Positions 10,812-24,708 of a DNA stretch of 38,286 bases are shown one piece after another. Source of the DNA: Nonomuraea lactucae (lineage in GTDB: Bacteria; Actinomycetota; Actinomycetes; Streptosporangiales; Streptosporangiaceae); NCBI RefSeq assembly GCF_003313395.1, contig NZ_QNFZ01000079.1, positions 1 to 38,286 on the forward strand, given 5' to 3'. The notes beneath the pieces were generated by a model. The model had not been told where the DNA came from. It made no database searches and saw nothing but the letters and a program-made list of their open reading frames with translations. The position numbers and the translations under genes were made by a program. Each line of letters opens with the position of its first letter. Position 1 is the stretch's first letter.

Positions 10812-12854
10812 ATGTCCTCCCCGAATGATCAGGACCCCGTGATGCTGGGACTGCGCCTGCAGGCCGCGCGGGAGCGGGCTTTCGTCGGGCGGGAGGAGGA
10901 TCTCGCCACTTTCAGGTCGGCGCTCTGCGGCGCCCACAGCGTGCTGTACGTCCACGGCCCGGGTGGGGTGGGCAAGTCCGCGCTGCTGCGGCGCTTCTCG
11001 CTGGAGGCGGCGGAGGCCGGTCGGCGCGTGACGATGCTGGACGGGCGGACGCTCGATCCCACGCCGGCGGCGTTCGAGGCCGAGGCCGGGTCGGTGCTCA
11101 AGGACGAGCGCGCGGTGCTGGTGATCGATGCCTTCGAACGGGTTCAGGGCCTGGAGGGCTGGCTGCGCGAGCGGTTCCTCCCGCGACTGCCGGTCGGCGC
11201 GCTCGTCGTGGTGGCCGGCCGCACCCCTCCGGACATGACCTGGACCGCCGACCCGGGCTGGGCGCACGCGCTCCGGGTGATGGCGCTGCGTGACCTCGGC
11301 CCCGTGGACGCGGAGGCGCTGCTGGACGCCCGCGGCGTGGCCGACGAGATGCGCGGGCCGCTGCTGGCCTTCGCCGGCGGCCATCCCCTCGCGCTGTCGC
11401 TGGGCGCCGCGGTGGCCATCAAGGACAGCCAGGCGAGCTCGCGCTGGACGCCCTCGCAGGACGTGGTCGCCACCCTGCTCGATCAGCTCGTCGGCGAGGT
11501 GCCCACTCTCGCGCACCGGCACGCGCTGGAGGTCTGCGCGCACGCGTACATGACCACGGAGGAGCTGCTGCGCGAGATCCTGCCGGACGACACCGCGTCC
11601 CTGTTCGCCTGGCTGCGACGGCTGCCGTTCGTGGAGTCCAGCCGCATGGGCCTGTTCCCGCACGACGTCGTACGCGAGGTGCTGGAGGCCGATCTGCGCT
11701 GGCGCGATCCGCAGGGATACGCCGACATGCACCGGCGCATCACCGCCTACTTCACCGGCCGCATCCCCGTCGTGAGCGACGCCTGGGTGCTCGGGGCGGT
11801 CGGCTCGCTCTTCTACCTGCACCGTTCCGTCGGAACGACGGCGGAGTTCCACAGCTGGCGCGGTGACGGCGAGGTGTACGAGGACGTCTTCCGCCCCGAG
11901 GACGTCGATGCGCTGGTGCGGATGGCCGCCGCGGTGGAGAACGACGAGTCGGCGGCAGCCGTCGCCTTCTGGACCCGTCGTCAGCCCAAGGCGTTCCGCC
12001 TCTACCGGCGGACGGAGACCGGCGAGCTGGCGGGCTTCTGCTCCTGGCTGCGCCTGTCCGAGGTCTCCGAGGAGGAGGCGGCGGCCGACCCGATCGTCGC
12101 CACGGCCTGGGCCAACGCCCGTGCCATCGCGCCGCTGCGGCCCGGCGAGCACGTGGCTGTCGGCCGTACGTGGGTGCGCGAGGAATACGGCGGCACGTCG
12201 CCGGCGATGGACCTGATGCAGTGGCGCGCCGTGGGCTACTGCCTGAGCGCCGACCGCATGGCCTGGTCGTTCATGGCCATGCGCGACGACCACGCCATGC
12301 GTGACTACCTGCGCTACTACGACATGCACGACCTCGGACAGCACGCGTGGCTGGGGGAGACCGAGTACGTGCTGTTCGCCCACGACTGGCGGGCGACGCC
12401 CGCCCAGGCCTGGCTGGACCGGCTCGACCAGCTGCTGCTCGACGGCCCGCAGGAGAGCCCGGCCCCGCCCGTGCCCGAGCTGGCGGTGATGTCGCAGGCG
12501 GAGTTCGCCGGAGCCGTGCGCAAGGCCCTGCGGCACCTGTCCCGGCCCGCCGAACTGGCCGTCAGCCCTCTCACGCGAAGCAGGATCGTCACAGAGGACG
12601 CCGACTCCGACCCCGCCAAGGCCCTGCGCCGGATCCTGGAGCAGGCCATCGACGACCTGCGCCAGGACCCGCGCGCGGCCAAGTTCCACCGCGCCCTCGC
12701 CGGCACCTACCTCCATGGGGCCCTGACACAGGAGATCGCCGCCGAGCGTCTCGGCCTGCCCTTCACCACCTACCGCCGTCACCTGCTCGCCGGCGTCAAG
12801 CGGGTCTGCGAGGACCTCTGGCACCGCGAGATCCACGGCACGGTCGGGAGCTGA
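10812..12854 (+). CDS. Large P-loop ATPase with C-terminal HTH (paralogue 2)
   Basis: The 680-residue protein aligns with the preceding gene from end to end with very few gaps; by eye well over half the residues are identical. Walker A GPGGVGKS is at the same residues (49-56), followed by VLVIDAFER, GGHPLAL, the GNAT-like middle (LYRRTETGELAGFCSWLRL, HVAVGRTWV) and the C-terminal HTH (TQEIAAERLGLPFTTYRRHLLAGVKRV). The strongest conservation is in the segments FVESS...LFPHDVVREVLEADLRWRDPQGYA and the HTH; the stretches around residues 330-360 and 530-560 diverge. The pair arose by tandem duplication. Function is unknown; an ATP-dependent regulator is the best guess. Confidence 0.8.
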   Translation: MSSPNDQDPVMLGLRLQAARERAFVGREEDLATFRSALCGAHSVLYVHGPGGVGKSALLRRFSLEAAEAGRRVTMLDGRTLDPTPAAFEAEAGSVLKDERAVLVIDAFERVQGLEGWLRERFLPRLPVGALVVVAGRTPPDMTWTADPGWAHALRVMALRDLGPVDAEALLDARGVADEMRGPLLAFAGGHPLALSLGAAVAIKDSQASSRWTPSQDVVATLLDQLVGEVPTLAHRHALEVCAHAYMTTEELLREILPDDTASLFAWLRRLPFVESSRMGLFPHDVVREVLEADLRWRDPQGYADMHRRITAYFTGRIPVVSDAWVLGAVGSLFYLHRSVGTTAEFHSWRGDGEVYEDVFRPEDVDALVRMAAAVENDESAAAVAFWTRRQPKAFRLYRRTETGELAGFCSWLRLSEVSEEEAAADPIVATAWANARAIAPLRPGEHVAVGRTWVREEYGGTSPAMDLMQWRAVGYCLSADRMAWSFMAMRDDHAMRDYLRYYDMHDLGQHAWLGETEYVLFAHDWRATPAQAWLDRLDQLLLDGPQESPAPPVPELAVMSQAEFAGAVRKALRHLSRPAELAVSPLTRSRIVTEDADSDPAKALRRILEQAIDDLRQDPRAAKFHRALAGTYLHGALTQEIAAERLGLPFTTYRRHLLAGVKRVCEDLWHREIHGTVGS

Positions 12855-13748: not shown

Positions 13749-14717
13749 ATGCGTGCCGTGTGGTTGAGGGAGTTCGGCGGGCCCGAGGTGCTGAGGGTCG
13801 AGGAGACCCCGGACCCCGTACCGGGAGAGGGACAGGTCGTGGTCGAGACCGCGGCGATCGGGATCACGTACGTGGAGACCCAGGTCCGCTCCGGATCGGC
13901 GCCCATGCCGCTGCCCACCCTGCCGGTCATCCAGGGCAACGGTGTCGCGGGCACAGTCGTGGCGGCCGGGCCCGGAGCGGATGCCGCGCTGGTCGGCCGG
14001 CGGGTGGCCACCACGACCGGCGGGTCCGGCGGCTACGTGGAGAAGGTCGCGGTCGACGCCTCCACGGTAATCCCGATCCCGGACGGACTCGGCTTCCAGG
14101 ACGCGGTCGGCCTGCTGAACGACGGGCGCACGGCGCTGGGCATCGCCACGGCCGTGGCGCCCAAGCCTGAGGAATGGGTGCTGATCGGCGCCGCGGGCGG
14201 CGGGGTCGGCAGCCTGCTGGTCCAGGTGGTCAAACAGGCCGGTGCGCGGGTGGTTGCCGCCGCGAGCTCGACCGCCAAGCTCGACCTCGCCCGCGACCGG
14301 GGCGCCGACGTGGTCGTCGACTACACCCAGCCGGACTGGAAGACACGCGTATGGGAGGCCACCGGCGGCGCGGGCGTGGACGTCGCCTGCGACTCCTCCG
14401 GCGGTCCCATCGGGCGGGGGGTGTTCGAGCTGGTACGGCCGGGCGGCCGGTTCATCGCGTTCGGCGCGGGGAGCGGGACGATGACGCGGATCAGCGAGGA
14501 GGAGGCGAACGCGCAGGGCGTCGCCGTGGTGCCGCTGTGGGAGGCCTTCCCCTCGCCGGCCGCCATGCAGGAGATGTCCGTGCGGGCGCTGGCCGAGGGC
14601 GCGGCCGGACGGCTGCGACCCGCCATCGGCCAGACGTTCCCGCTGGAACGCGCCGCCGACGCGCACGCGGCGATCGGCGCGCGGAAGACGCTGGGCAAGA
14701 CGCTGCTCATCCCTTGA
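13749..14717 (+). CDS. Zinc-independent quinone oxidoreductase (medium-chain dehydrogenase)
   Basis: The 322-residue protein is a full-length quinone reductase (zeta-crystallin type). It starts MRAVWLREFGGPEVLRVEETP and has the nucleotide-binding motif GAAGGGVGSLLVQVVKQAGARVV at about 150-170, typical of NADPH-using members. The structural and catalytic zinc ligands of alcohol dehydrogenases are missing. The reaction is expected to be NADPH-dependent reduction of quinones or activated alkenes in the cytoplasm. AGGGGGAG at 13735-13742 fixes ATG 13749. Its end overlaps the convergent phosphatase gene by 11 bp. Confidence 0.9.
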   Translation: MRAVWLREFGGPEVLRVEETPDPVPGEGQVVVETAAIGITYVETQVRSGSAPMPLPTLPVIQGNGVAGTVVAAGPGADAALVGRRVATTTGGSGGYVEKVAVDASTVIPIPDGLGFQDAVGLLNDGRTALGIATAVAPKPEEWVLIGAAGGGVGSLLVQVVKQAGARVVAAASSTAKLDLARDRGADVVVDYTQPDWKTRVWEATGGAGVDVACDSSGGPIGRGVFELVRPGGRFIAFGAGSGTMTRISEEEANAQGVAVVPLWEAFPSPAAMQEMSVRALAEGAAGRLRPAIGQTFPLERAADAHAAIGARKTLGKTLLIP

Positions 14718-17700
14718 CCGACGCGGTAGGGCCGGACCTCCTGTCACTCGCCACGGGAGGAACGCGGATCGCGAGCACGGTGACGTCGTCCTCCTGCTCG
14801 TACCCCGACAGCATCCGGTCGACGAGGTAGTCCAGCAGCATGTGCGGGCTGCCCACGACCTCGGCGGGCGCCTCCTCGACGGCCAGGCGGAGTTCCGCGA
14901 GGCCCTTGTCGAGCCCGCGCTCCCTGTTCCAGACGAGCCCGTCGGAGTAGAGCACCGCGGTGTGACCCGGCGGCACAGCGAGCGCGGACTGCCGGCGGAC
15001 GCTGGGCCAGCCCAGCGGCGTGCCGGGCCGGACCTCTGTGAGCTTCGCCCGGCCGTCGGGGGAGATCAGCACGGGCGGCGGGTGGCCGGCCAGCGCCAGC
15101 GAGCCCCTGCCGGTGCCCGGCTCGATGACCAGGTACGCCAGGGTGGCGAGCTGTTCGGGGTCCTCCGTCTCGGTGAAGACGCGGTCCAGACCGGTGAGCA
15201 CGGAGGCGGGCGGCGGGTCGACGAGCGCCAGGGTGCGAATGGCGGTGCGGGTGCGGCCCATCACGATCGCAGCCGCGATCCCCTTGCCCATGGCGTCGCC
15301 CACGACCGCGGCCACCCGCCCGTCGCCCAGCTCGAACGCGTCGAAGAAGTCGCCACCGACCATCACGTGGTGGGTGCCGGAGCGGAACCGGTGGGCCAGC
15401 TCCAGGCCCCTGACGACCGGCAGGCGGTCCGGCAGCAGGCTGCGTTGCAGCGTCTCCGCGGTGCGGTTCTCGCGCTCGAACAGCGTGCCCCGCTCCACCG
15501 CCAGCGCGCACTGGGCGGCCAGGGCCTCCAGGAAGACCCGGTCCTCGGGCGAGATCTTCTGTGGCTGGGTGAAGGAGAAGCGCAGCGCGCCCAGACTCCG
15601 TCCGGCCACCAGGAGCGGCAGGCCCACCCAGGCCCGCTCGTCCGTGTGCGCGAGAAAGCCGCTCAGCGTGTGCTCATCGCTTCCGGCCTCCAGGAACTGT
15701 GCTTCCAGCGCTTCCGGCGACTCGGCGACGAAGGGGACGCGCTTCCTCGCCGCCAGGGTCATCACGCTGATCGCGGCCAGCGAGGTCTCGGATGCGTGGC
15801 CGCCGGGCAGCTCGTGGAGTCCCTCACCGCTGACCAGCTTCAGCGAACCCCGCTCGGGGTCGAGCAGCGCCACCGCCGAGCGGTCCGCGGCCAGTGCCGT
15901 CCGGCCCACCTCCATGATTATCGACCCCACCTCCTCAACCGTCAGCGCCTCGGCGAGCCGCGCCGTGGCGCCCTGCAGACGTGCCGTACGGATGGCCGCC
16001 TGCCCCAGCTGGTCGGTCAGCAGTTCCCGCGCCTCCTCGCTCTCTCGCTGGGAGGTCACGTCCTCGTTGGCGCCGACCCATTCGGTCACCCGTCCCTGCC
16101 TGGTGATCGGTACGGCGCGCACCTGAAAGTGGCGGTAGCCGCCCGCGCGGGTACGGACCCGGTAGCCCCATTCGAACGTGGACTGGCCGCGCAGCGCCCC
16201 ACGCCAGGCCTCCTCCGTGGCCGGGAGGTCCCCCGGATGCACGGCGCCGAGCCAGCCGTCCGCCAGATACTCCTCCAGCGCCTGGCCGGTGATCGCCCGC
16301 CACTGCGGCGCGTCCTCCAGCACCGCTCCGGTGGGGGAGGTGATCCAGAGGATCGGCGACTGGGCTCTGGCCAGTCCGGCCATGCGCTCGTACAGCCGCT
16401 CGGCGGCACTCTCGCCGCGGCGATCGGCACCGGCGGCGAGGACCGGATCGGAGACGCCGTCGGCCTCCGAGCTGATCAGTCCGAACGGGTCGCCCGCCGT
16501 TCTGACGACCCGGTCGCCGCTCGGCGGCGCGCCCGGGAGGTAGCCCAGGAACGTGGCGGTTCCCGTGCCGGCCCTGGCCGCGAGCTCTCGGGAGACCGCC
16601 TGGAGGACATGGATGGCACTCCGGCGGCCCGTGCGCGACATCGATCTGAGGAGGAGCCGTCTGGCGCCGGGCACGAAGGTGTAGAAGCCGGGGTGCTGTT
16701 CCGACGGGTGAAGGAGCCCGCTGAGCATGACCTCGGCGAGATGCTCAGGAGCCGATCCCGGGAGGAGCGCCTGCTGCATGAGCCTGATCAACGGCAAGGA
16801 GGGGAAGGAGGCGGTGGCCAGGTAGCCGGCCAGTGAGTACGCCTGCGGCGAGGCCACCGCGCGCAAGCGCAGGATCTGCTCCTCGACGGGCTGGGCGCGC
16901 TCCTCATGGACCCACGCGCCGAGGGCGGCCGGCTGGTCGTCCAGGTGCGTCACGGCGACGGGCGTCATGTTTCCGGCCATCATCTGCGCCCAGTTGGCGA
17001 ACCACGGCGCGGACAGCCCGACCACGGGGATGGCAACGCCTGGATTGCTCCTGTCCTGATCCGGCCTCTCCGGATGCAGCCTGAGCGACGGGTTCGCGGT
17101 GAAGGGGCGGGCCATGACGGCCCGGTGAGCGGTCACCGTGATCGCGGTTCGGTGCCAGAGCCGTTCAGGCAGCGGCTGCAGGATCGCCGTCGGCGAGCTC
17201 GACGCCCATCGCCGCACCGTACGGGCCATTCTTCCGGCCCACCAGTGGCTGCCGGAGCAGTCGCTCAAGAGCAGCACGAGCTGGCGGCCGGATGGATCGG
17301 TCAGGGCGCCGGGCGGCCCCGCGGATCCGGCCGTGATGCCGTGCGGCCCGTCTTCGAGGCGCGTGAGCCGCACGTTCCTGAACGCGCCCAGATTCGTGCA
17401 GAGCTCACGCAGTTCCTCGCCCATGGGCCGCCACAGGTCCATCGACGGGCCGAAGTCGATCACCAGGGTCAGGTTCAGGCGGCGTTCCAGGGTGGGAACC
17501 AGAACCGGGACCCAGGGCGAGCGCCGTTGAGGGTACTGCCTCGCGATCCGATCGACCGTGGCCCGCTCGTCGAGCGTCCGCTGGTGCCGGGTCAGCGCGC
17601 GCCTGCGCAGTGGCCTCAGGGCTCGGTTGAGCTTCATCCCGCCGGAGAGCATGGGCGCGCTCGACAGCTGGACCGCCGTCGCGCTCCCCCCGGCCGATTC

Positions 17701-17949
17701 CGGTGTCGCGTGGGAGTAGATCTCGCGCCGGGCGTCCGCCGGTGCGGGCGGTGACTCCGGCAGGGGGAGCCGTGCCGGTGGTTCGGGCTTCTCGACCGGC
17801 TCCCGGGTCACGGGCGAGCCGCGCTCCGCGGCCGGGCCGCGTTCGCGCACCATCATGGCGAGCCAGAGGCGCTCGGCGAGTTCGACGGCCGTCGGCGGCT
17901 GCCCGACCGCGCTCAGGACGCGGCGCAGCCCGTCAATGCTCGCTGTCAC
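14707..17949 (-). CDS. SAV_2336/vWA-like protein fused to PAS, GAF and SpoIIE-type PP2C phosphatase
   Basis: The 1080-residue product has four parts. Residues 1-35 (DGLRRVLSAVG..ELAERLWLAMM) and about 145-480 match the SAV_2336 family; LTLVIDFGPSMDLW (Asp165) and LVLLLSD correspond to vWA-fold strands, with a degenerate MIDAS (DxGxS). About 516-635 is a PAS domain (YRVRTRAGGYRHFQV, then EWVGANEDVTSQRESEE), 650-820 a GAF domain, and 845-1064 a SpoIIE/RsbU-type PP2C with metal aspartates in GGDFFD (867, 870), GDAMGKG (885), YSDG (1003) and EDDVTVL (1054-1055). It should be an active Mn/Mg-dependent Ser/Thr phosphatase. GTG 17949 overlaps the MoxR gene by 17 bp, so translation is coupled; an upstream in-frame extension lies inside moxR. 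It is the last gene of the VMAP operon. Confidence 0.85.
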   Translation of the reverse strand: MTASIDGLRRVLSAVGQPPTAVELAERLWLAMMVRERGPAAERGSPVTREPVEKPEPPARLPLPESPPAPADARREIYSHATPESAGGSATAVQLSSAPMLSGGMKLNRALRPLRRRALTRHQRTLDERATVDRIARQYPQRRSPWVPVLVPTLERRLNLTLVIDFGPSMDLWRPMGEELRELCTNLGAFRNVRLTRLEDGPHGITAGSAGPPGALTDPSGRQLVLLLSDCSGSHWWAGRMARTVRRWASSSPTAILQPLPERLWHRTAITVTAHRAVMARPFTANPSLRLHPERPDQDRSNPGVAIPVVGLSAPWFANWAQMMAGNMTPVAVTHLDDQPAALGAWVHEERAQPVEEQILRLRAVASPQAYSLAGYLATASFPSLPLIRLMQQALLPGSAPEHLAEVMLSGLLHPSEQHPGFYTFVPGARRLLLRSMSRTGRRSAIHVLQAVSRELAARAGTGTATFLGYLPGAPPSGDRVVRTAGDPFGLISSEADGVSDPVLAAGADRRGESAAERLYERMAGLARAQSPILWITSPTGAVLEDAPQWRAITGQALEEYLADGWLGAVHPGDLPATEEAWRGALRGQSTFEWGYRVRTRAGGYRHFQVRAVPITRQGRVTEWVGANEDVTSQRESEEARELLTDQLGQAAIRTARLQGATARLAEALTVEEVGSIIMEVGRTALAADRSAVALLDPERGSLKLVSGEGLHELPGGHASETSLAAISVMTLAARKRVPFVAESPEALEAQFLEAGSDEHTLSGFLAHTDERAWVGLPLLVAGRSLGALRFSFTQPQKISPEDRVFLEALAAQCALAVERGTLFERENRTAETLQRSLLPDRLPVVRGLELAHRFRSGTHHVMVGGDFFDAFELGDGRVAAVVGDAMGKGIAAAIVMGRTRTAIRTLALVDPPPASVLTGLDRVFTETEDPEQLATLAYLVIEPGTGRGSLALAGHPPPVLISPDGRAKLTEVRPGTPLGWPSVRRQSALAVPPGHTAVLYSDGLVWNRERGLDKGLAELRLAVEEAPAEVVGSPHMLLDYLVDRMLSGYEQEDDVTVLAIRVPPVASDRRSGPTASVKG

Positions 17950-18940
17950 CGTCCGGGTCCGTTCCGTCCGTGTCGTGATCGAGATAGGGCATGAGCCGGT
18001 CGGCCAGTCGCAGCCTGTCCTCCGAACCGCTGTGGTGAAGGAGGTAGACCGCGTTGAGCAACTGGTCCGTGGCGAGGGCGCCACCGGTCTTCCTGGCGAG
18101 GAAGCGTTCGACGATGTCGCGACTGCCGGCGACCAGCTCGGAACCGAGATGTGCGGCGACGATCCGCTCCAGTTTCTCCCCGGTGGGCTGATGCAGGCGG
18201 AGCGTGACGCACCTGCGCAGGAAGGCGGGCGGAAACTCGCGCTCGCCGTTGCTCGTCATGATGACCAGCGGGAACGACCGGCACCGCACGACCCCGCCGG
18301 AGACGGCCACGGGAGCGCCACCGTCGGCCGTCATCACCTCGGCCGACGGCGAGGTGTGACGCTGGAGCTCCGGTATTTCGAAGCAACCCTTCTCGAAGAT
18401 CGTCAGCAGGTCGTTCGGCAGGTCCATGTCACTCTTGTCGATCTCGTCGATCAGCAGCACGCGCGGCCGGTCGAACGGGAGGAGGGCGGTGCCCAGCGGT
18501 CCCAGCCGGATGTAGCGGCCGATCTCCTCGTCGGCTGCCGCGCCACCGGTGTGTTCCTCCCTGCTCGCGGCGTACAGCCGGGTCAGCGGATCGTACTGGT
18601 AGAGGCCGTCCAGCAGGGTCACGCGACTGGTGATCGGCCAGTGCAGCACCGGACCGAGCCGCAGTTCGTGGGCGACCGCGGTGGCGAGCGTGGATTTGCC
18701 TGCCCCGGGCGGACCGGTCACCAGGAGCGGGCGGCGCAGGAACAGGGCGGCGTTCACCTGCTCGACCGCCCGCACGTCGGGCTGGTAGCTCGTCGCTTCA
18801 TGATCCCCGTTGCCGCCCCATGGCGGTTGCGGCAGGGTGGGGCCTCCGGTGAAGACCCGCCACGGAGGGGGAGGCGGGAGATCCCGGTCGATGCTGTCGT
18901 GGGGGACGCCGGATCCGGTGTAGATGAACCAGTTCGACAT
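17933..18940 (-). CDS. MoxR-type AAA+ ATPase of a VMAP ternary system
   Basis: The 335-residue protein has Walker A GPPGAGKS (76-83), Walker B VLLIDE (161-166), sensor-1 asparagine in MTSN (231) and an arginine finger in FLRR (242-243). The opening MSNWFIYTGSGVPHDSID, and NAALFLRRPLLVTGPPGAGKS followed by LGPVLHWPITSRVTLLDGLYQYD, are features of MoxR proteins that travel with VMAP proteases and vWA proteins. In that family the ATPase is thought to remodel its partners or control their assembly in an NTP-dependent way. GGAAGGGGA lies before ATG 18940. Only 1 nt separates it from the protease gene, and it overlaps the phosphatase gene by 17 bp. Confidence 0.9.
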   Translation of the reverse strand: MSNWFIYTGSGVPHDSIDRDLPPPPPWRVFTGGPTLPQPPWGGNGDHEATSYQPDVRAVEQVNAALFLRRPLLVTGPPGAGKSTLATAVAHELRLGPVLHWPITSRVTLLDGLYQYDPLTRLYAASREEHTGGAAADEEIGRYIRLGPLGTALLPFDRPRVLLIDEIDKSDMDLPNDLLTIFEKGCFEIPELQRHTSPSAEVMTADGGAPVAVSGGVVRCRSFPLVIMTSNGEREFPPAFLRRCVTLRLHQPTGEKLERIVAAHLGSELVAGSRDIVERFLARKTGGALATDQLLNAVYLLHHSGSEDRLRLADRLMPYLDHDTDGTDPDGDSEH

Positions 18941-18941
18941 C

Positions 18942-20621
18942 TCAGTCCCCTTCCCGGGAGGGGGCCAACGGCGGGTCGGGCATTCGCGTTGGATCGTCCC
19001 AGAACAGCGATATCTTCTGGACAGGCTTGTCGTTCATGCCCGCTCTCCGCAGGTGCTTGATCCGGTCAGGGAGCTGATCAGGCGTCGATTTCTCGACAAT
19101 GGCCGCCACTTCCGACAGAAACCTGTTTCCGCGGCAGTCGTCGTGCTGCTCGGCTCGGCAGGAGGATCGTGGCCACACCATGATGGGAATGCCGAACTTC
19201 AGTGCTTTCCTGATATGCCCGAGATTCGGCGACGTGGCGTGCACGATGGTGGTGCGGGCCTCGTCCGCCAGCCAGCCGAGCGTGGCCCTGTCCCGGCAGC
19301 CGACCAGGCCGGGTGGATCGCAGCCGAGCTCGCGGAGCCTGCGCCAGCGCTTGATGGCCTGATCCCAGCGCTGGCTGCCGCCCCGCCTGCGTGCCAGGTC
19401 GCGGATCACCACCGGATAGAGCAGGCCGAGTTCGAGGCTGTCGGCGGGATCGTCGTTCGTGGACCAGTTCTCGACGCCCGTCCTCCTGGTGAACCAGTCA
19501 TCGGGCAGCATGAACTCGATGATGAAATCCTCGCCCGCCACCTCGGCCAGCAGGCGTGGTATCTCACGCTCCACGCTGGCTCTGACCTGGTCCTCCGCGA
19601 CCGGGCCGGGCAGGGGGCGGGTCCATCCGCTTCCGTCGGCCCGCCAGATGGAGAACTCCAGAAGATAGCCGCCGAGGCCGCTGGGCGCGATCCGCACGAT
19701 GATCGCCACCGAGGCGGGCACGGCCGTGGTGTCCGGCCCGGGACCGAGATACCTCGTCCGCCACTGCCGTACCTCCGCGGCCCTCGACCTGTCGTCCATG
19801 CGGGCGATGATCCTGGTCAGGAAGCGGGTCAGCGCGCCGTCCTCGTCGATCTCCTCGGCGGCCAGGACGACGGCCCTCCAGAGGGAGGGTTCGCCCTGGT
19901 GGGACAGGAGGGGGAACTCATCGGCCAGCAGGGCTCGGGGCGAGATCCCCGTGGTGGCGCCGGTGAGGTGCCGGCGTAGCTCTCCCCGAGGCCCCGCGCC
20001 GAGGCCGCCCGGCCAGGAGTGGGGGAGCAGGTCGTCGAGCGGCTCCCAGTACCTGCGCAGCGTGGAGATCGGCAACATGCGGCCCACCCGCTGCTCCGCC
20101 GCCAGGTCGGCGTCGGTGACCATGCCCACCACCTCACCGGTGCCCGGCAGGTAGACGGCGGCGCCGCTGAACCCTCTCTCGATGAACTGACCGTGGCCGT
20201 CCCACGCGTTGAGCTGGCACCATTCGTCGGCCATGATCTGGCGGTCGTCGATGCGGAGTTCGGCGAAGGCGCCGGAGTCGGTCTTCCCCTTCGCGACGCC
20301 GTAGGCGAAGAGTTTGCTGTCCCGCCAAGCACCGGCGTCGGTGGGATCGGCCAGGCGAGCGGGCGTTATGCGGACCGGCCGCGCCAGCTCAAGCACCGCG
20401 ACGTCCCCTCGGGGAGCTGTTCGCGGTCTCCACGGTCCTCTGTGCACCACGGCGGCGGAGCACCGCAGTGAGGGGTCGGCGGCGGGAAAGACGACGACGG
20501 GATCGCCCAGGTCGTGGACGACGTGCGCGCAGGTCAGCACATGGCGGTCGTCGATCAGGAAACCGGAACCCGCCGTCCGCCCGTCCGCCTGATCGATGCG
20601 GGCGTGCCACGGACTGGTCAC
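18942..20621 (-). CDS. Trypsin-like serine protease with VMAP-C domain
   Basis: The 559-residue protein begins with a trypsin-fold domain (about 5-185) with all three catalytic residues: His33 (LTCAHVV), Asp73 (RGDVAVLEL) and Ser152 (RGFSGAAV). No signal peptide precedes it, so it should be cytoplasmic. About 200-545 matches the C-terminal domain of vWA-MoxR-associated proteins (LIFELSIWR-type strands, then LGLLYPVVIRDLARRRGG with flanking WRRLRELG). In described systems VMAP is the effector-bearing partner of a MoxR and a vWA protein. I place the start at GTG 20621, which overlaps by one base the TAG of the 32-residue ORF upstream (TAGTG). AAGG lies only 2 nt before it, so coupling rather than independent initiation is likely. 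Confidence 0.87.
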   Translation of the reverse strand: MTSPWHARIDQADGRTAGSGFLIDDRHVLTCAHVVHDLGDPVVVFPAADPSLRCSAAVVHRGPWRPRTAPRGDVAVLELARPVRITPARLADPTDAGAWRDSKLFAYGVAKGKTDSGAFAELRIDDRQIMADEWCQLNAWDGHGQFIERGFSGAAVYLPGTGEVVGMVTDADLAAEQRVGRMLPISTLRRYWEPLDDLLPHSWPGGLGAGPRGELRRHLTGATTGISPRALLADEFPLLSHQGEPSLWRAVVLAAEEIDEDGALTRFLTRIIARMDDRSRAAEVRQWRTRYLGPGPDTTAVPASVAIIVRIAPSGLGGYLLEFSIWRADGSGWTRPLPGPVAEDQVRASVEREIPRLLAEVAGEDFIIEFMLPDDWFTRRTGVENWSTNDDPADSLELGLLYPVVIRDLARRRGGSQRWDQAIKRWRRLRELGCDPPGLVGCRDRATLGWLADEARTTIVHATSPNLGHIRKALKFGIPIMVWPRSSCRAEQHDDCRGNRFLSEVAAIVEKSTPDQLPDRIKHLRRAGMNDKPVQKISLFWDDPTRMPDPPLAPSREGD

Positions 20622-20719
20622 TACCTTATGGCGACGGCTTGAAAGCCGCTCACATCCTGGTCGGCGACCTCCACGACGATCGATTCGCCATTCATGTCCC
20701 AGCGCACTAATTCGCTCAT
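20621..20719 (-). CDS. 32-residue Trypco1-like mini-ORF coupled to the protease
   Basis: ATG 20719 opens a short frame beginning MSELVRWDMNGESIVVEV and ending QAVAIR, stop TAG at 20621-20623. This is the N-terminal beta-hairpin pattern of the trypsin-co-occurring domain 1 family (CU044_2847-like proteins), small proteins encoded directly before trypsin-like genes; family members are usually about 100 residues, so two thirds is missing. The last base of the stop is the first base of the protease GTG, a classical re-initiation arrangement. Either it is a decayed Trypco1 kept because it drives translation of the protease, or a genuine minimal version. A perfect inverted repeat lies 3 nt before the ATG. 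The gene is too short for most gene finders. Confidence 0.6.
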   Translation of the reverse strand: MSELVRWDMNGESIVVEVADQDVSGFQAVAIR

Positions 20720-20745: not shown

Positions 20746-20812
20746 AACCTAGCAAGCTTGAGTGTGCCCTTCAGTGGGTTTCGGCATTTGCGGTGTAATG
20801 CGGCTTTGCCAG

Positions 20813-20866: not shown

Positions 20867-23800
20867 CTAGGTGGTCACGGCGTAGGCGCGGGTGATCGTC
20901 TGCTTCACCTCCTGGCCGTCGGGGCCGGAGGCGGTCGCCCGGAGGGAGACGAATCCCGGGGCGGCCGGGTTGGTGATCGAGGTGGTCCAGCCCTTGGCCG
21001 TACGCCGGAGCTCAAGCGGCTGCCAGGTGCGGCCGTCGTCGAAGGACGCCTCCACCCTGGGCGTCTCCAGCTGGCCGCCCTCGGCCCGCATCTGAACCTC
21101 GGTGGCCGATCCGGTCTTGGCCCGATTGAAGGCGTCGAGCCCTTCCGGCGCGTAGCGCAGGGCGGGCAGAGCCAGCGGCTGGGACTCCGTCGTACGGGCC
21201 GACCGGAACGTCCAGGTCGCCTCGACGGCGGTGGACAGGGCGGCGTACGGGACGTCGCGGCGGGCGGAGGCGGTCAGCGTGTATGTTCCCGTCTCGGCGG
21301 GCAGACCGGTGGCGACGAGCGGGCAGTACCACCAGTTGGCGCAGCCGTCCAGCTCGGCCTTGGCGAGCACTGTGCCGTCCTTGGCCAGGACGACGCTGCC
21401 CTTGGCGTTGCCGTCCCAGCCGGCTCGGTCCAGGCCCGTGTCGGTGAACAGCCCGCTGGGAACGTAGCTCATCTCGTCGCCGCGCCGCCTCAGGACGGGG
21501 GCGGCCGGGCCGGTGACCGCGGCGTTCCAGATCTCCGTGACCGGCCTGCCGCCGAACGTGACGTCCTTGGCGTCCTCGACGTCGTGTCTGGCTTCGTCGG
21601 GGGGCCCGATGGACAACCCGCTACGCCAGATGAGGCCGCGCGCGGGCGTCAGGTAGCTCGTCAGCGTGCCTGGCAGGTCCACGGGCGTGGGGCTGGAGCC
21701 CAGGAAGATCAGGTCCGATCCGCGCAGTGCCGGGCCGCGGTCGAAGTCTCCCTTGGCGGCGACATGCTGGCCACGGAAGGACGAGGTGATCTTCGTCAGG
21801 TTCGCGGTCCTGGCCCGGACCCCGGGGTCGGCGGGGATGCCGCCGGATCGGTAGTCGACCAGATCGTACCGGTAGGGGCTGGGGGAGGCGTCCTTCTTGT
21901 TCCACACCGTCGCCGCCATGAACTCCAGGCCGCGCTGGCGGGAGGGGAAGACGTAGGTGTCGCGAGGGTCGGCGAAGGGCCAGTACATGAACTCGATGAC
22001 CTTGTCTCCCTCCTTGTAGCGCAGGCTGACCTTGGCGATCTCGGCGGGGGCGGCGGTGGGGTCGTCGACCGTGAACCGGACCGGGACGGCCTTGCGGGCG
22101 TCCAGGACCACCTTCTCGTCCCGCGTGCCGATGCGCACCTTGAAGTGGGTGGTCGTGGGCCCGCTCTGGTCAGCGATATGGGCGACCAGGCTGTAGTCGC
22201 CGCGCGGGAGGCGCACCTTGCCCGTGCCCTCTTGCATGTCGATGCTCTCGAACCGGGCGTTCTTGAGGTCGTAGGCCGTGATCATCGGCATCTTGGCCGG
22301 CGCGCCGTCTCGTCCGAGGGCCGTCACGGTCAGGTCGTACGACTCGGGTTCGACGAAGGCGCCCGCCAGGGTGCGCACGGTCATGTCGCCCGATGCCGCG
22401 GTCACCATGCCGGGGTGGGTGCCCGTCTGCAGGCCGCCGCGGAGGGTGAGCGTGACGGCGGCCTCGCCCTTCGCGGGCACCTCCAGCCGCTCGGCGGACA
22501 GGGTGAAGGGGCCCTCGGCGGACAGGGCGAGGGTGACCGGGGCTTCCGCCGTGTTCCGGTAGGTGATCTTCTTGGTGGGAGGCTCGCCGCCGCCCGGCCA
22601 GCGGACCACGGCCCAGACGTTGGCCGGGGTCGCGACCACCTGCTGCGCCAGCGCGCCCGGCACGTCCACCCGGCCTGCGCCCTGCTGGTACGGCGAGAGT
22701 CCCTCCTTCGGCTTGGCGCCGCTCATGAGGGCGGCCTTGAGCTGCTCGCCGGTCCAGTCGGGATGCTTCTGGGCGAGGATGGCCGCGGCGCCCGCGACAT
22801 GGGGGGTGGCCATGGAGGTGCCGGACTCCGGTCGGTACGGGCCGTCGGCCGTTCCCTTGGCCGCGGCGGCGACGATCTCCACGCCCGGGGCGGTGATGTC
22901 GGGCTTGACGGCGCCGTCGCCCTTGCGCGGGCCCTGGCTGGAGAACGAGGCGAGTTGGTCGGCGCTGTCCACGGCACCCACCGTGAGCGCCGCGTCCGCG
23001 CTGCCGGGACTGTTCATCGTCCCCTTGCCGGGTGAGTTGCCCGCCGCGATGACGAACAGTGTGCCGGTCTGCTGGGACAGCGTGTTGACGGCCTGCTCGA
23101 TGGGATCGAGATCCTGGTGGTCCGGACCGCCGATGCTGACGTTGGCCACGCGTGCCTTGGCCTTCGTGGCCGCCCATTCCATGCCGGCGATCAGGGCGGA
23201 GTCGCTGATGTCGCCGCTCTGGCCGCCGACCTTGGCTATCGCGAGCTTCGCGTCCGGCGCGACGCCGCGGTACTTTCCGCCCGACGCCTGTCCCGATCCG
23301 GCGATGGTGGACGCCACGTGGGTTCCGTGCCCGTTGGTGTCGGTGGCGTCGGGCTCGTCGCTGAAGTTCACCGACTGGGTGACCACGTCCTTGAGGTCGG
23401 GATGGTCGGGGTCGTAGCCGGAGTCGATCACAGCGACGGTCACGCCCTTGCCGGTCAGGCCCTGCTCCCAGGCCTTGGGCGCGCCGATCTGCGGCACGCT
23501 CTTGTCGAGGAACAGCTTCCGCTTGCCGTCGAGCCAGAGCTTCGACACCGACGCCCCGAGGGTGCGTCGCCCCGCGCCCTGCCCCAGCCGTGCCCAGGCC
23601 GTGCCGGCCTGGGCCTTGGTCACCCGTGCCGCCGACAGGCCGAGGGTGTCGATGCGCCGCTGCTGCGCCGTGGCGGCTCCGGGAGCCGTCGCCCCCTCGG
23701 TGATGACGGGGATGTCGGCGCGGTGGGCGTCGTCGTACTGCCAGGCGAGGAGCTGGGTGACGTCGAAGAACCGCTGGTCGACCAGGCCTTGGGCGATGAG

Positions 23801-24115
23801 CGGCGCCGCGTCGGACGGTATGACGTGAAGGTGGCCGTCACGTCGTTGCGCGGCGAACGACACCTTGCGCCCGGATCCGGGGTGGATCCGGTACGCCTGC
23901 TTGTCTCCCGGCGTTCCGTACAGGGTCACGCGGTCACCTGTGATCAACGTCACCTGCCCGGACGCGCCCCCCTGTAAGGCGGGGGCGACTTGTAACGCCG
24001 CGTCCTGTCGTTGAGCGGCCATGGAGTTGACCGCGCCGACCCCGGCGGCCGGCGCCGCGACGCTGCCCAGGGCCGTCACCGCCACCAGGGCTGTGAGTCC
24101 GGCTTTCCGCTTCAT
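20867..24115 (-). CDS. Large secreted subtilisin-like serine protease (S8)
   Basis: The 1082-residue protein has a signal peptide (MKRKAGLTALVAVTALGSVA), a propeptide-like region opening with GQVTLITGDRVTLYGTPGDK, and a full S8 domain: catalytic Asp in VAVIDSGYDPDHPDL, His in GHGTHVASTIAG, oxyanion Asn in VIAAGNSPG, and Ser in SGTSMATPHVAGAAA. The C-terminal 550 residues are beta-rich accessory domains, common in exported actinomycete subtilases. It probably degrades extracellular protein during growth or development. ATG 24115 is chosen over ATG 24130 because GGGAGAAG is well spaced for it. A terminator follows the gene and direct repeats precede it. Confidence 0.92.
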   Translation of the reverse strand: MKRKAGLTALVAVTALGSVAAPAAGVGAVNSMAAQRQDAALQVAPALQGGASGQVTLITGDRVTLYGTPGDKQAYRIHPGSGRKVSFAAQRRDGHLHVIPSDAAPLIAQGLVDQRFFDVTQLLAWQYDDAHRADIPVITEGATAPGAATAQQRRIDTLGLSAARVTKAQAGTAWARLGQGAGRRTLGASVSKLWLDGKRKLFLDKSVPQIGAPKAWEQGLTGKGVTVAVIDSGYDPDHPDLKDVVTQSVNFSDEPDATDTNGHGTHVASTIAGSGQASGGKYRGVAPDAKLAIAKVGGQSGDISDSALIAGMEWAATKAKARVANVSIGGPDHQDLDPIEQAVNTLSQQTGTLFVIAAGNSPGKGTMNSPGSADAALTVGAVDSADQLASFSSQGPRKGDGAVKPDITAPGVEIVAAAAKGTADGPYRPESGTSMATPHVAGAAAILAQKHPDWTGEQLKAALMSGAKPKEGLSPYQQGAGRVDVPGALAQQVVATPANVWAVVRWPGGGEPPTKKITYRNTAEAPVTLALSAEGPFTLSAERLEVPAKGEAAVTLTLRGGLQTGTHPGMVTAASGDMTVRTLAGAFVEPESYDLTVTALGRDGAPAKMPMITAYDLKNARFESIDMQEGTGKVRLPRGDYSLVAHIADQSGPTTTHFKVRIGTRDEKVVLDARKAVPVRFTVDDPTAAPAEIAKVSLRYKEGDKVIEFMYWPFADPRDTYVFPSRQRGLEFMAATVWNKKDASPSPYRYDLVDYRSGGIPADPGVRARTANLTKITSSFRGQHVAAKGDFDRGPALRGSDLIFLGSSPTPVDLPGTLTSYLTPARGLIWRSGLSIGPPDEARHDVEDAKDVTFGGRPVTEIWNAAVTGPAAPVLRRRGDEMSYVPSGLFTDTGLDRAGWDGNAKGSVVLAKDGTVLAKAELDGCANWWYCPLVATGLPAETGTYTLTASARRDVPYAALSTAVEATWTFRSARTTESQPLALPALRYAPEGLDAFNRAKTGSATEVQMRAEGGQLETPRVEASFDDGRTWQPLELRRTAKGWTTSITNPAAPGFVSLRATASGPDGQEVKQTITRAYAVTT

Positions 24116-24161
24116 CCAGACTTCTCCCATCAGTCGGGTTTGACTCCATGAGTAATGTCTG

Positions 24162-24203
24162 GAAAAGATCAGCTGATTACAGCTCCGCGAAAAGATCACT
24201 GAT
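24162..24203. promoter_or_regulatory. Direct repeats upstream of the subtilisin gene
   Basis: GAAAAGATCA occurs at 24162-24171 and 24189-24198. Each copy is followed by CTGAT (with one extra G in the first), so the repeat is effectively 15 bp with a 27-bp period. It sits about 50-90 bp upstream of ATG 24115 in an AT-richer stretch. It is a good candidate for a tandem activator or repressor site. Confidence 0.5.
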
Positions 24204-24345
24204 AGAGGCCGGAACCGTCGCCGTCCGTCGTCGGCGTGCGCGTCACCCGGTGGCGTGGTCGGCGAGGACCGGTGCGAGGAGGTGCCGGCGGGCCTGCTAG
24301 TCTCGCCCGGCTGGTCCAGCCCTCCCTCCAAAGAGCCGGAGCACC

Positions 24346-24708
24346 ATGAACATCCTCGCCGCCGTCCTCGTCGCGCTCGTCGCGCTGCTGCACGTCTACT
24401 TCCTCGTGCTGGAGATGTTCCTGTGGCGTACCCCACTGGGGCGCAGGACCTTCGACCTGGACCAGGAGTTCGCCGACAAGTCCGCCCCCCTCGCCAAGAA
24501 CCAGGGCCTCTACAACGGTTTCCTCGCCGCCGGCCTCGTCTGGGGGCTCGTCGCTAGCGACCCCGTCGGATTCCAGGTCAAGATCTTCTTCCTGGCCTGC
24601 GTGATCGTCGCCGGCGTCTTCGGGGCGGCGACCGCCAACCGGCGCATCCTGTTCGTCCAGGCCCTCCCCGCCCTGCTCGCCCTCATCCTGGTGGTCCTCG
24701 CCCGCTGA
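24346..24708 (+). CDS. DUF1304-family small integral membrane protein
   Basis: The 120-residue protein has four hydrophobic segments (about 3-24, 52-72, 78-96, 101-119). Between the first two is the conserved hydrophilic stretch EMFLWRTPLGRRTFDLDQEF, then KNQGLYNGFLAAGLVWGL, which identify DUF1304. The function of the family is unknown. CCGGAG about 8 nt before ATG 24346 supports the start. It stands alone, diverging from the subtilisin gene. Confidence 0.88.
   Translation: MNILAAVLVALVALLHVYFLVLEMFLWRTPLGRRTFDLDQEFADKSAPLAKNQGLYNGFLAAGLVWGLVASDPVGFQVKIFFLACVIVAGVFGAATANRRILFVQALPALLALILVVLAR

Follow-up and report, generated by a model that had tools for sequence, protein, structure and literature searches.

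A VMAP-type ternary operon of Nonomuraea lactucae with a putatively captured PAS-GAF-SpoIIE phosphatase module in its vWA component

In the present work, we analysed a stretch of 38,286 nucleotides from Nonomuraea lactucae, probably a soil actinobacterium (contig NZ_QNFZ01000079.1, positions 1 to 38,286), hereafter the window. A three-gene operon on its minus strand (14707-20719) encodes a trypsin-VMAP protease, a MoxR-type ATPase and a SAV_2336-type vWA protein with a PAS-GAF-SpoIIE end. By gene content, gene order and intact motifs, the locus is a VMAP-type ternary operon. Judging by sequence comparison, the tail of the vWA protein was captured from a stand-alone PAS-PAS-GAF-SpoIIE phosphatase, of which it is a diverged copy lacking the first PAS domain. 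The stand-alone gene is linked to a sigma factor gene in nearly all family members sampled, and we consider it probable that its copy fills the effector position of the vWA protein and acts as an effector released by the system. The VMAP system type is already known; the PAS-GAF-SpoIIE tail appears to be a new variant of it, found in one draft genome.

Composition of the operon

VMAP ternary systems are defined by the gene order VMAP-MoxR-vWA, two N-terminal MoxR motifs (WxhapG and PsWRxa), a tripartite VMAP protein and variable vWA tails (Kaur et al. 2020, PMC7159879, cited here and below from parts of its text). The operon shares with them the gene order, the trypsin/VMAP-M/VMAP-C architecture, the MoxR N-terminal motifs and the variable vWA C-terminus; of the Trypco1 neighbour, only a truncated form is present. 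Based on Pfam annotation, the protease matched VMAP-C (120.6 bits, cut-off 27), VMAP-M8 (33.7 bits, cut-off 27) and Trypsin_2 (45.7 bits, cut-off 27.6), and the fusion protein matched SpoIIE (146.3 bits, cut-off 25), PAS_3 (55.3 bits, cut-off 25.6) and GAF_2 (42.5 bits, cut-off 28.6). Pfam gave no VWA match for the fusion protein; its N-terminal part was recognised by the NCBIfam model SAV_2336_NTERM (NF041121; 341.3 bits, cut-off 200). The ATPase was assigned to the MoxR family by its motifs together with AAA_5 (33.3 bits, cut-off 22), which is not a MoxR-specific model. In a PADLOC search, the fusion had no match, and the VMAP and MoxR proteins had only weak matches to other families.

According to the alignments, the trypsin His-Asp-Ser triad of VMAP is conserved (6 relatives), as are the Walker A/B, sensor and Arg-finger motifs of MoxR, whose N-terminal motifs WFIYTG and PPWRVF are also present (7 relatives), and the metal-site (MIDAS) aspartates of the vWA part in VIDFGPS and LLSDCSG (6 relatives). 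The SpoIIE aspartates D867, D885, D1003 and D1054/D1055 are all present in the fusion; which of them bind metal was assigned by motif, with the SpoIIE residues given in a published study (PMC5468089).

These results bear out the arrangement described in an earlier sequence-only reading of the window: a trypsin-VMAP protease with an intact triad, a MoxR open reading frame (ORF) beginning one base past the VMAP stop, a vWA gene overlapping it by 17 bp, all on one strand, and SpoIIE metal aspartates in place. The three genes lie within the span of 14707-20719 given there, but base 20719 starts a separate 32-codon Trypco1 ORF and not the VMAP gene. The Trypco1 stop and the VMAP start overlap (TAGTG), and the VMAP open frame extends upstream beyond its GTG to a TTG at 20747. 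The G+C content at third codon positions (GC3) of the three long ORFs is 0.86-0.91.

Table 1. Features of the operon, with window coordinates and the evidence for each
Feature	Position	Strand	Evidence
VMAP protein: trypsin domain, VMAP-M8, VMAP-C; 559 aa, GTG start	18942-20621	-	Pfam; triad conserved vs 6 relatives
MoxR-type AAA+ ATPase, 335 aa, N-terminal W..YTG and PPWR motifs	17933-18940	-	AAA_5 match; motif alignment
vWA fusion protein, 1080 aa, GTG start	14707-17949	-	17-bp overlap with MoxR
SAV_2336 N-terminal (vWA) part, residues 1-505	16435-17949	-	NCBIfam NF041121; alignment with relatives
PAS-GAF-SpoIIE module, putatively captured, residues 508-1068	14746-16428	-	~72% identity to stand-alone phosphatase
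PAS_3 domain, residues 548-627	16069-16308	-	Pfam
GAF domain, residues 669-819	15493-15945	-	Pfam
SpoIIE-type PP2C domain, metal-site aspartates kept	14761-15324	-	Pfam; alignment
Truncated Trypco1, first 32 codons only	20621-20719	-	Hidden Markov model built from Trypco1 of five relatives

Origin and divergence of the phosphatase module

The tail is joined behind the C-terminal extension of the vWA part, at about residue 505, and is 71-72% identical to a stand-alone phosphatase of the same genome (L046:8013-10223), with the metal-site aspartates common to both. The domain order of the stand-alone protein is PAS-PAS-GAF-SpoIIE; unlike it, the fusion lacks the first PAS, is attached to a vWA part and evolves faster. 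SpoIIE-domain matches in this genome number 12 in all. When the fusion was used as a query in the genus, 53 of the 54 other genomes contained one match of 69-72% over the tail (approximately residues 508-1068), located within an open reading frame of 721-764 aa, and the remaining one (G017) gave split pieces only. The same search also listed matches of lower identity (32-37%) and, in G019, a second copy at 67%. In the family, 99 of 100 genomes matched the tail with an E value of 1e-75 or lower, in a sample that includes the window's genome and two others of the genus; five of these matches are partial (G125, G133, G161, G173 and G182), and the genome without a match is 67% complete. The sequence-only reading had named, as a result that would speak against it, a phosphatase protein normally occurring without VMAP and MoxR. 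This holds for the module itself, a stand-alone gene in these 99 genomes, and the fusion is a singleton in the samples searched.

In the genome of the window, the stand-alone gene is separated by 110 bp from a downstream rpoD-type sigma gene, whose product scored 859 bits with the NCBIfam model for a principal-type RNA polymerase sigma factor (cut-off 582) and 373.6 bits with TIGR02393 RpoD_Cterm (cut-off 354). An rpoD-type gene is located downstream on the same strand in 32 of the 34 loci examined, usually within 60-235 bp; two loci with a shortened ORF, L109 and L111, have larger gaps. If one gene counted twice (G021) and a copy fused to a helix-turn-helix part are left out, 32 stand-alone loci remain, and the sigma gene follows the phosphatase in 31 of them but not in L123. 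The gene pair of the window's genome (L046:6133-10223, minus strand) is therefore of a kind near-universal in the family. Its phosphatase and its sigma factor each share about 92% identity with their Nonomuraea gerenzanensis counterparts (phosphatase L131:5476-7686), a value within the 90-93% phosphatase identity to 11 other aligned loci of the genus, which by itself makes Nonomuraea the very probable genus.

Selection on the module was assessed from Nei-Gojobori medians of nonsynonymous (dN) and synonymous (dS) divergence, calculated with our own script. The fused copy compared with 28 stand-alone genes gave dN 0.202 and dS 0.62 (dN/dS about 0.33), versus dN 0.069 and dS 0.52 (about 0.13) for the stand-alone gene of the genus compared with other genera. 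By these estimates, the fused copy is evolving faster than the stand-alone gene, yet it is constrained. Its branch in the tree is 0.54 long, versus at most 0.23 for any stand-alone tip, and it attaches below the Nonomuraea-side clade. Because the support there is only 61 and the branch is long, the age of the capture is not fixed by the tree; the median dS of 0.62 versus 0.52 suggests that it is roughly as old as the neighbouring genera.

An apparent concentration of changed positions within the switch region of SpoIIE (residues 886-935) was rejected as a finding, since the segment was picked after the data had been seen, and nothing here rests on it. Clade-invariant positions were changed in 15 of 43 cases inside the segment and in 10 of 93 outside (Fisher p 0.0015); for positions invariant in all 32 stand-alone proteins the counts were 8 of 33 and 6 of 68 (p 0.06), and for all columns the comparison gave p 0.10.

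A second captured copy of the module was noted in G019 (L050:5803-8160, minus strand), behind another N-terminus, which shows a coiled-coil-like stretch and a helix-turn-helix match that is weak and does not reach the cut-off. It groups in the tree with the stand-alone copy of the window's genome (support 92) and sits among genes with TraG and Replication-relaxation domains, neighbours that suggest an integrative element or plasmid. Recruitment of the module has thus probably taken place on two occasions or more. In L125 and L126 (genus g11; genomes G078 and G091), a VMAP system is located about 10 kb from the phosphatase/rpoD locus, and in L125 an FxsB-type radical-SAM maturase gene lies between the two, L126 having been judged by eye. 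The FxSxx peptide-processing genes, which are related to it, have been described as companions of some VMAP systems (PMC7159879).

Distribution of the fusion and related loci

Residues 1-1080 as a whole were matched only in the window's genome among 55 genomes of the genus. No other genome among the 100 of the family had the tail and the vWA part in one place, and the whole fusion was found only here in the class (118 genomes, E 1e-65) and in the phylum (100 genomes, E 1e-60). It should be noted that these samples overlap, that at most 6-14 candidates per genome were scored, and that a distant fusion could score below the limits of the searches. Among plasmid records, 123 of 72,556 matched the fusion, none over 80% of the query; among 50,697 phage records, none matched.

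Searches for proteins of the SAV_2336 type gave 10 above the cut-off in 9 of 55 genomes of the genus, where a further 28 short rows scoring below it were discarded. In the order, 39 of 101 genomes yielded 52 rows, among them one below the cut-off that was kept. These searches gave 60 distinct loci, of which the 59 besides that of the window were fetched. A MoxR match was present in 58 of the 59 (not in L073). Neither BLAST nor PAS, GAF and SpoIIE profiles (E 0.1, unfiltered) detected the module in any of the 59 loci, 58 of which are informative, as L107 ends at a contig end before the tail; the profiles were made from the phosphatase's own domains, and unrelated GAF or PAS families could escape them. 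Two further vWA matches of the family search (G177 and G178), outside the 59 loci, also end before the tail. A peptide-pattern scan for relatives of the fusion returned 31 loci, whose best segments were 25-41% identical and fell in SpoIIE/GAF regions, except for one PAS match. The patterns are particular to the fused copy and missed stand-alone genes of 72% identity, so the scan is no proof of absence.

The vWA alignment with eight close relatives is common up to about residue 495, and beyond it the tails differ. Based on Pfam, they contain TPR (L049, L068 and L074), WD40 and AAA (L067), FtsK-like domains (L072 and L073), a double-GTPase match below the cut-off (L079) or, in L075 (2439-5177, minus strand), a further VWA with sigma-70 regions 2 and 4, all above the cut-off; no PAS or GAF was found by Pfam at the tail position of these eight. 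Such variety is known for vWA tails, with 86 distinct domains across 1482 VMAP systems (PMC7159879).

Trypco1 or Trypco2 is a frequent but not universal neighbour where the peptidase is a trypsin (PMC7159879). In the window, the Trypco1 model was matched at its positions 1-31 only (E 1.1e-8 among 685 six-frame segments); the next segment had E 0.13 (positions 19-46), and none wholly within the missing part was better than E 2.3. Of the 59 other loci, 29 have a Trypco1 match, each extending at least to model position 106. Among nine close loci it is present in seven, with none for L074 or for L107, the latter near a contig end. The fragment may serve translation coupling, or the protease may have lost a partner.

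A vWA component with PAS-GAF-SpoIIE domains is not described in the literature searched, outside which lie the source-data tables of Kaur et al.; this agrees with the sequence-only reading, which knew of no such description. In the parts of PMC7159879 consulted, GAF is named as a vWA-linked domain, whereas SpoIIE/PP2C and PAS are not listed for VMAP systems; in that main text PP2C is mentioned once only, as a separate gene in GAP1-N2 systems, and the words SpoIIE and "sigma" are absent. The vWA proteins diversified by diversity-generating retroelements are similar in combining vWA and a variable C-terminal module with MoxR and trypsin-VMAP, but their tails are ligand-binding C-type lectins, and "phosphatase", "SpoIIE" and "PP2C" are absent from the consulted parts of PMC10907252. 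Likewise, the words vWA and GAF do not occur in the available part of a 2025 paper on bacterial PP2C domain architectures.

Proposed action and alternative explanations

The gene content and order, the intact motifs, the origin of the module and the constraint on it, as presented above, are the starting point for the following scheme of a released phosphatase effector. In the published models, MoxR/vWA pairs remodel bound proteins with ATP, and VMAP peptidases are proposed to free a vWA-linked effector (PMC7159879); a ternary complex and a conflict function are proposed here from these published models. In the resting complex, MoxR, vWA and VMAP would keep the phosphatase inactive. The phosphatase would then be freed, or allowed to dimerise, through a trigger, the hydrolysis of ATP by MoxR and, probably, proteolysis by the trypsin part of VMAP. 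Since SpoIIE is activated by dimerisation and helix movement (PMC5468089, in the parts consulted), release from the complex is a plausible trigger for the enzyme. The freed phosphatase might dephosphorylate the substrate of its stand-alone paralogue, perhaps a phosphorylated STAS or another sigma-control protein, and an infected or stressed cell would be pushed into dormancy or another transcriptional state. The complex, trigger, cleavage, substrate and outcome in this scheme are all inferred.

VMAP systems have been predicted from genomes, and in this case the gene from which the tail derives can be identified within the same genome, and the metal-site residues are intact. Because that parent adjoins a principal-type sigma gene and the metal site is intact, the recruitment of host modules could be tested with one paralogue pair. 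The case is a hint that systems of this type may gain their weapons by duplicating central regulators of the host cell.

Several points weigh against a released, active phosphatase. According to Kaur et al. (PMC7159879), many vWA-linked enzymes are inactive, and catalysis may not be the point. In the fusion, W1007 replaces the glutamate of the SDGLVE motif found in the stand-alone proteins. The fusion is a singleton in a draft genome of 1068 contigs, with no second fusion in any set searched, and the truncation of Trypco1 is the main sign of alteration in the system, so that the operon may be decaying.

PAS and GAF are classic sensory domains, and it is possible, if rather unlikely, that the tail senses a ligand or a redox change and relays it via MoxR to the VMAP trypsin as the effector, the phosphatase being a passenger or brake. 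The intact trypsin triad is consistent with this, and a sensor-type model has been proposed in print for the vWA/C-type-lectin targets of diversity-generating retroelements (PMC10907252, in part). However, the eight close relatives carry TPR, WD40, FtsK, GTPase-like or sigma modules at the tail position instead of PAS/GAF, and PAS-GAF was acquired jointly with the phosphatase in a single block, which means that selection for a sensory role is not required.

Another explanation is that the system stopped working after the loss of most of Trypco1 and that the fusion is a relic. The Trypco1 state seen here is absent from the 29 other loci with a match, and the single occurrence in 55 genomes of the genus and the long branch of the fused copy (0.54 versus at most 0.23) point the same way. 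We nevertheless regard decay as unlikely, given three long ORFs with high GC3, the integrity of all core motifs examined and a dN/dS far from 1. Moreover, the close relative L074 also has no Trypco1 match in its fetched stretch, and Trypco1 may therefore be dispensable.

The vWA-borne phosphatase might also be an integrated decoy, a bait copy of a sigma-linked core signalling protein that is a target of attack or mimicry by invaders and whose disturbance, and not catalysis, trips the MoxR-VMAP protease; this we hold to be quite doubtful. A parallel is known in the integrated domains of plant immune receptors. Decoy action has been suggested for inactive copies by Kaur et al. (PMC7159879), and an apparently active copy would extend that suggestion. 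If so, the sigma-70 tail of L075 and the present tail would together indicate that transcription-control proteins of the host are copied by VMAP systems to serve either as bait or as dominant effectors.

The sequence-only reading had gone further, proposing that the vWA partner also senses and that the system may couple anti-sigma-type partner switching by the phosphatase to release of a cytoplasmic protease. The SpoIIE part does have its best solved-structure sequence match in Rv1364c (3ke6, E 2.8e-21), a sigma-F partner-switching regulator, and the stand-alone paralogue adjoins an rpoD-type gene. Phosphatases of the SpoIIE/Rv1364c type share the SpoIIE domain and the metal-site aspartates with the fusion, where they are attached to a conflict-type vWA. 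However, no sequence evidence was found for dephosphorylation acting on the protease, and the four ORFs of the operon, to which the search for such genes was confined within the window and genome, include no anti-sigma or STAS gene. In addition, the published model runs from the protease to the vWA-linked effector (PMC7159879). This proposal is therefore conjecture, and in our view improbable.

That a vWA gene and a separate phosphatase gene were joined in assembly is highly improbable even for a singleton fusion in a fragmented assembly. Just one other close copy was detected in the genome, and the fused copy is about 28% divergent from it. In addition, the junction, which is situated 16 kb inside the 38-kb window, keeps the reading frame, and GC3 is similar on its two sides (0.887 and 0.910).

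The genome of the window contains a second VMAP-MoxR-vWA system (L047:7054-13887, plus strand), whose VMAP protein consists of EAD2, VMAP-M0 and VMAP-C, with no peptidase match. About 150 bp upstream of the operon, on the same strand, there is a gene for a subtilase-family (S8) peptidase (20867-24436, minus strand). Furthermore, a gene at 10812-12854 (plus strand) encodes a 680-aa protein with an N-terminal P-loop, for which AAA_16 scored barely over its cut-off and weaker matches to STAND-type NTPases were obtained.

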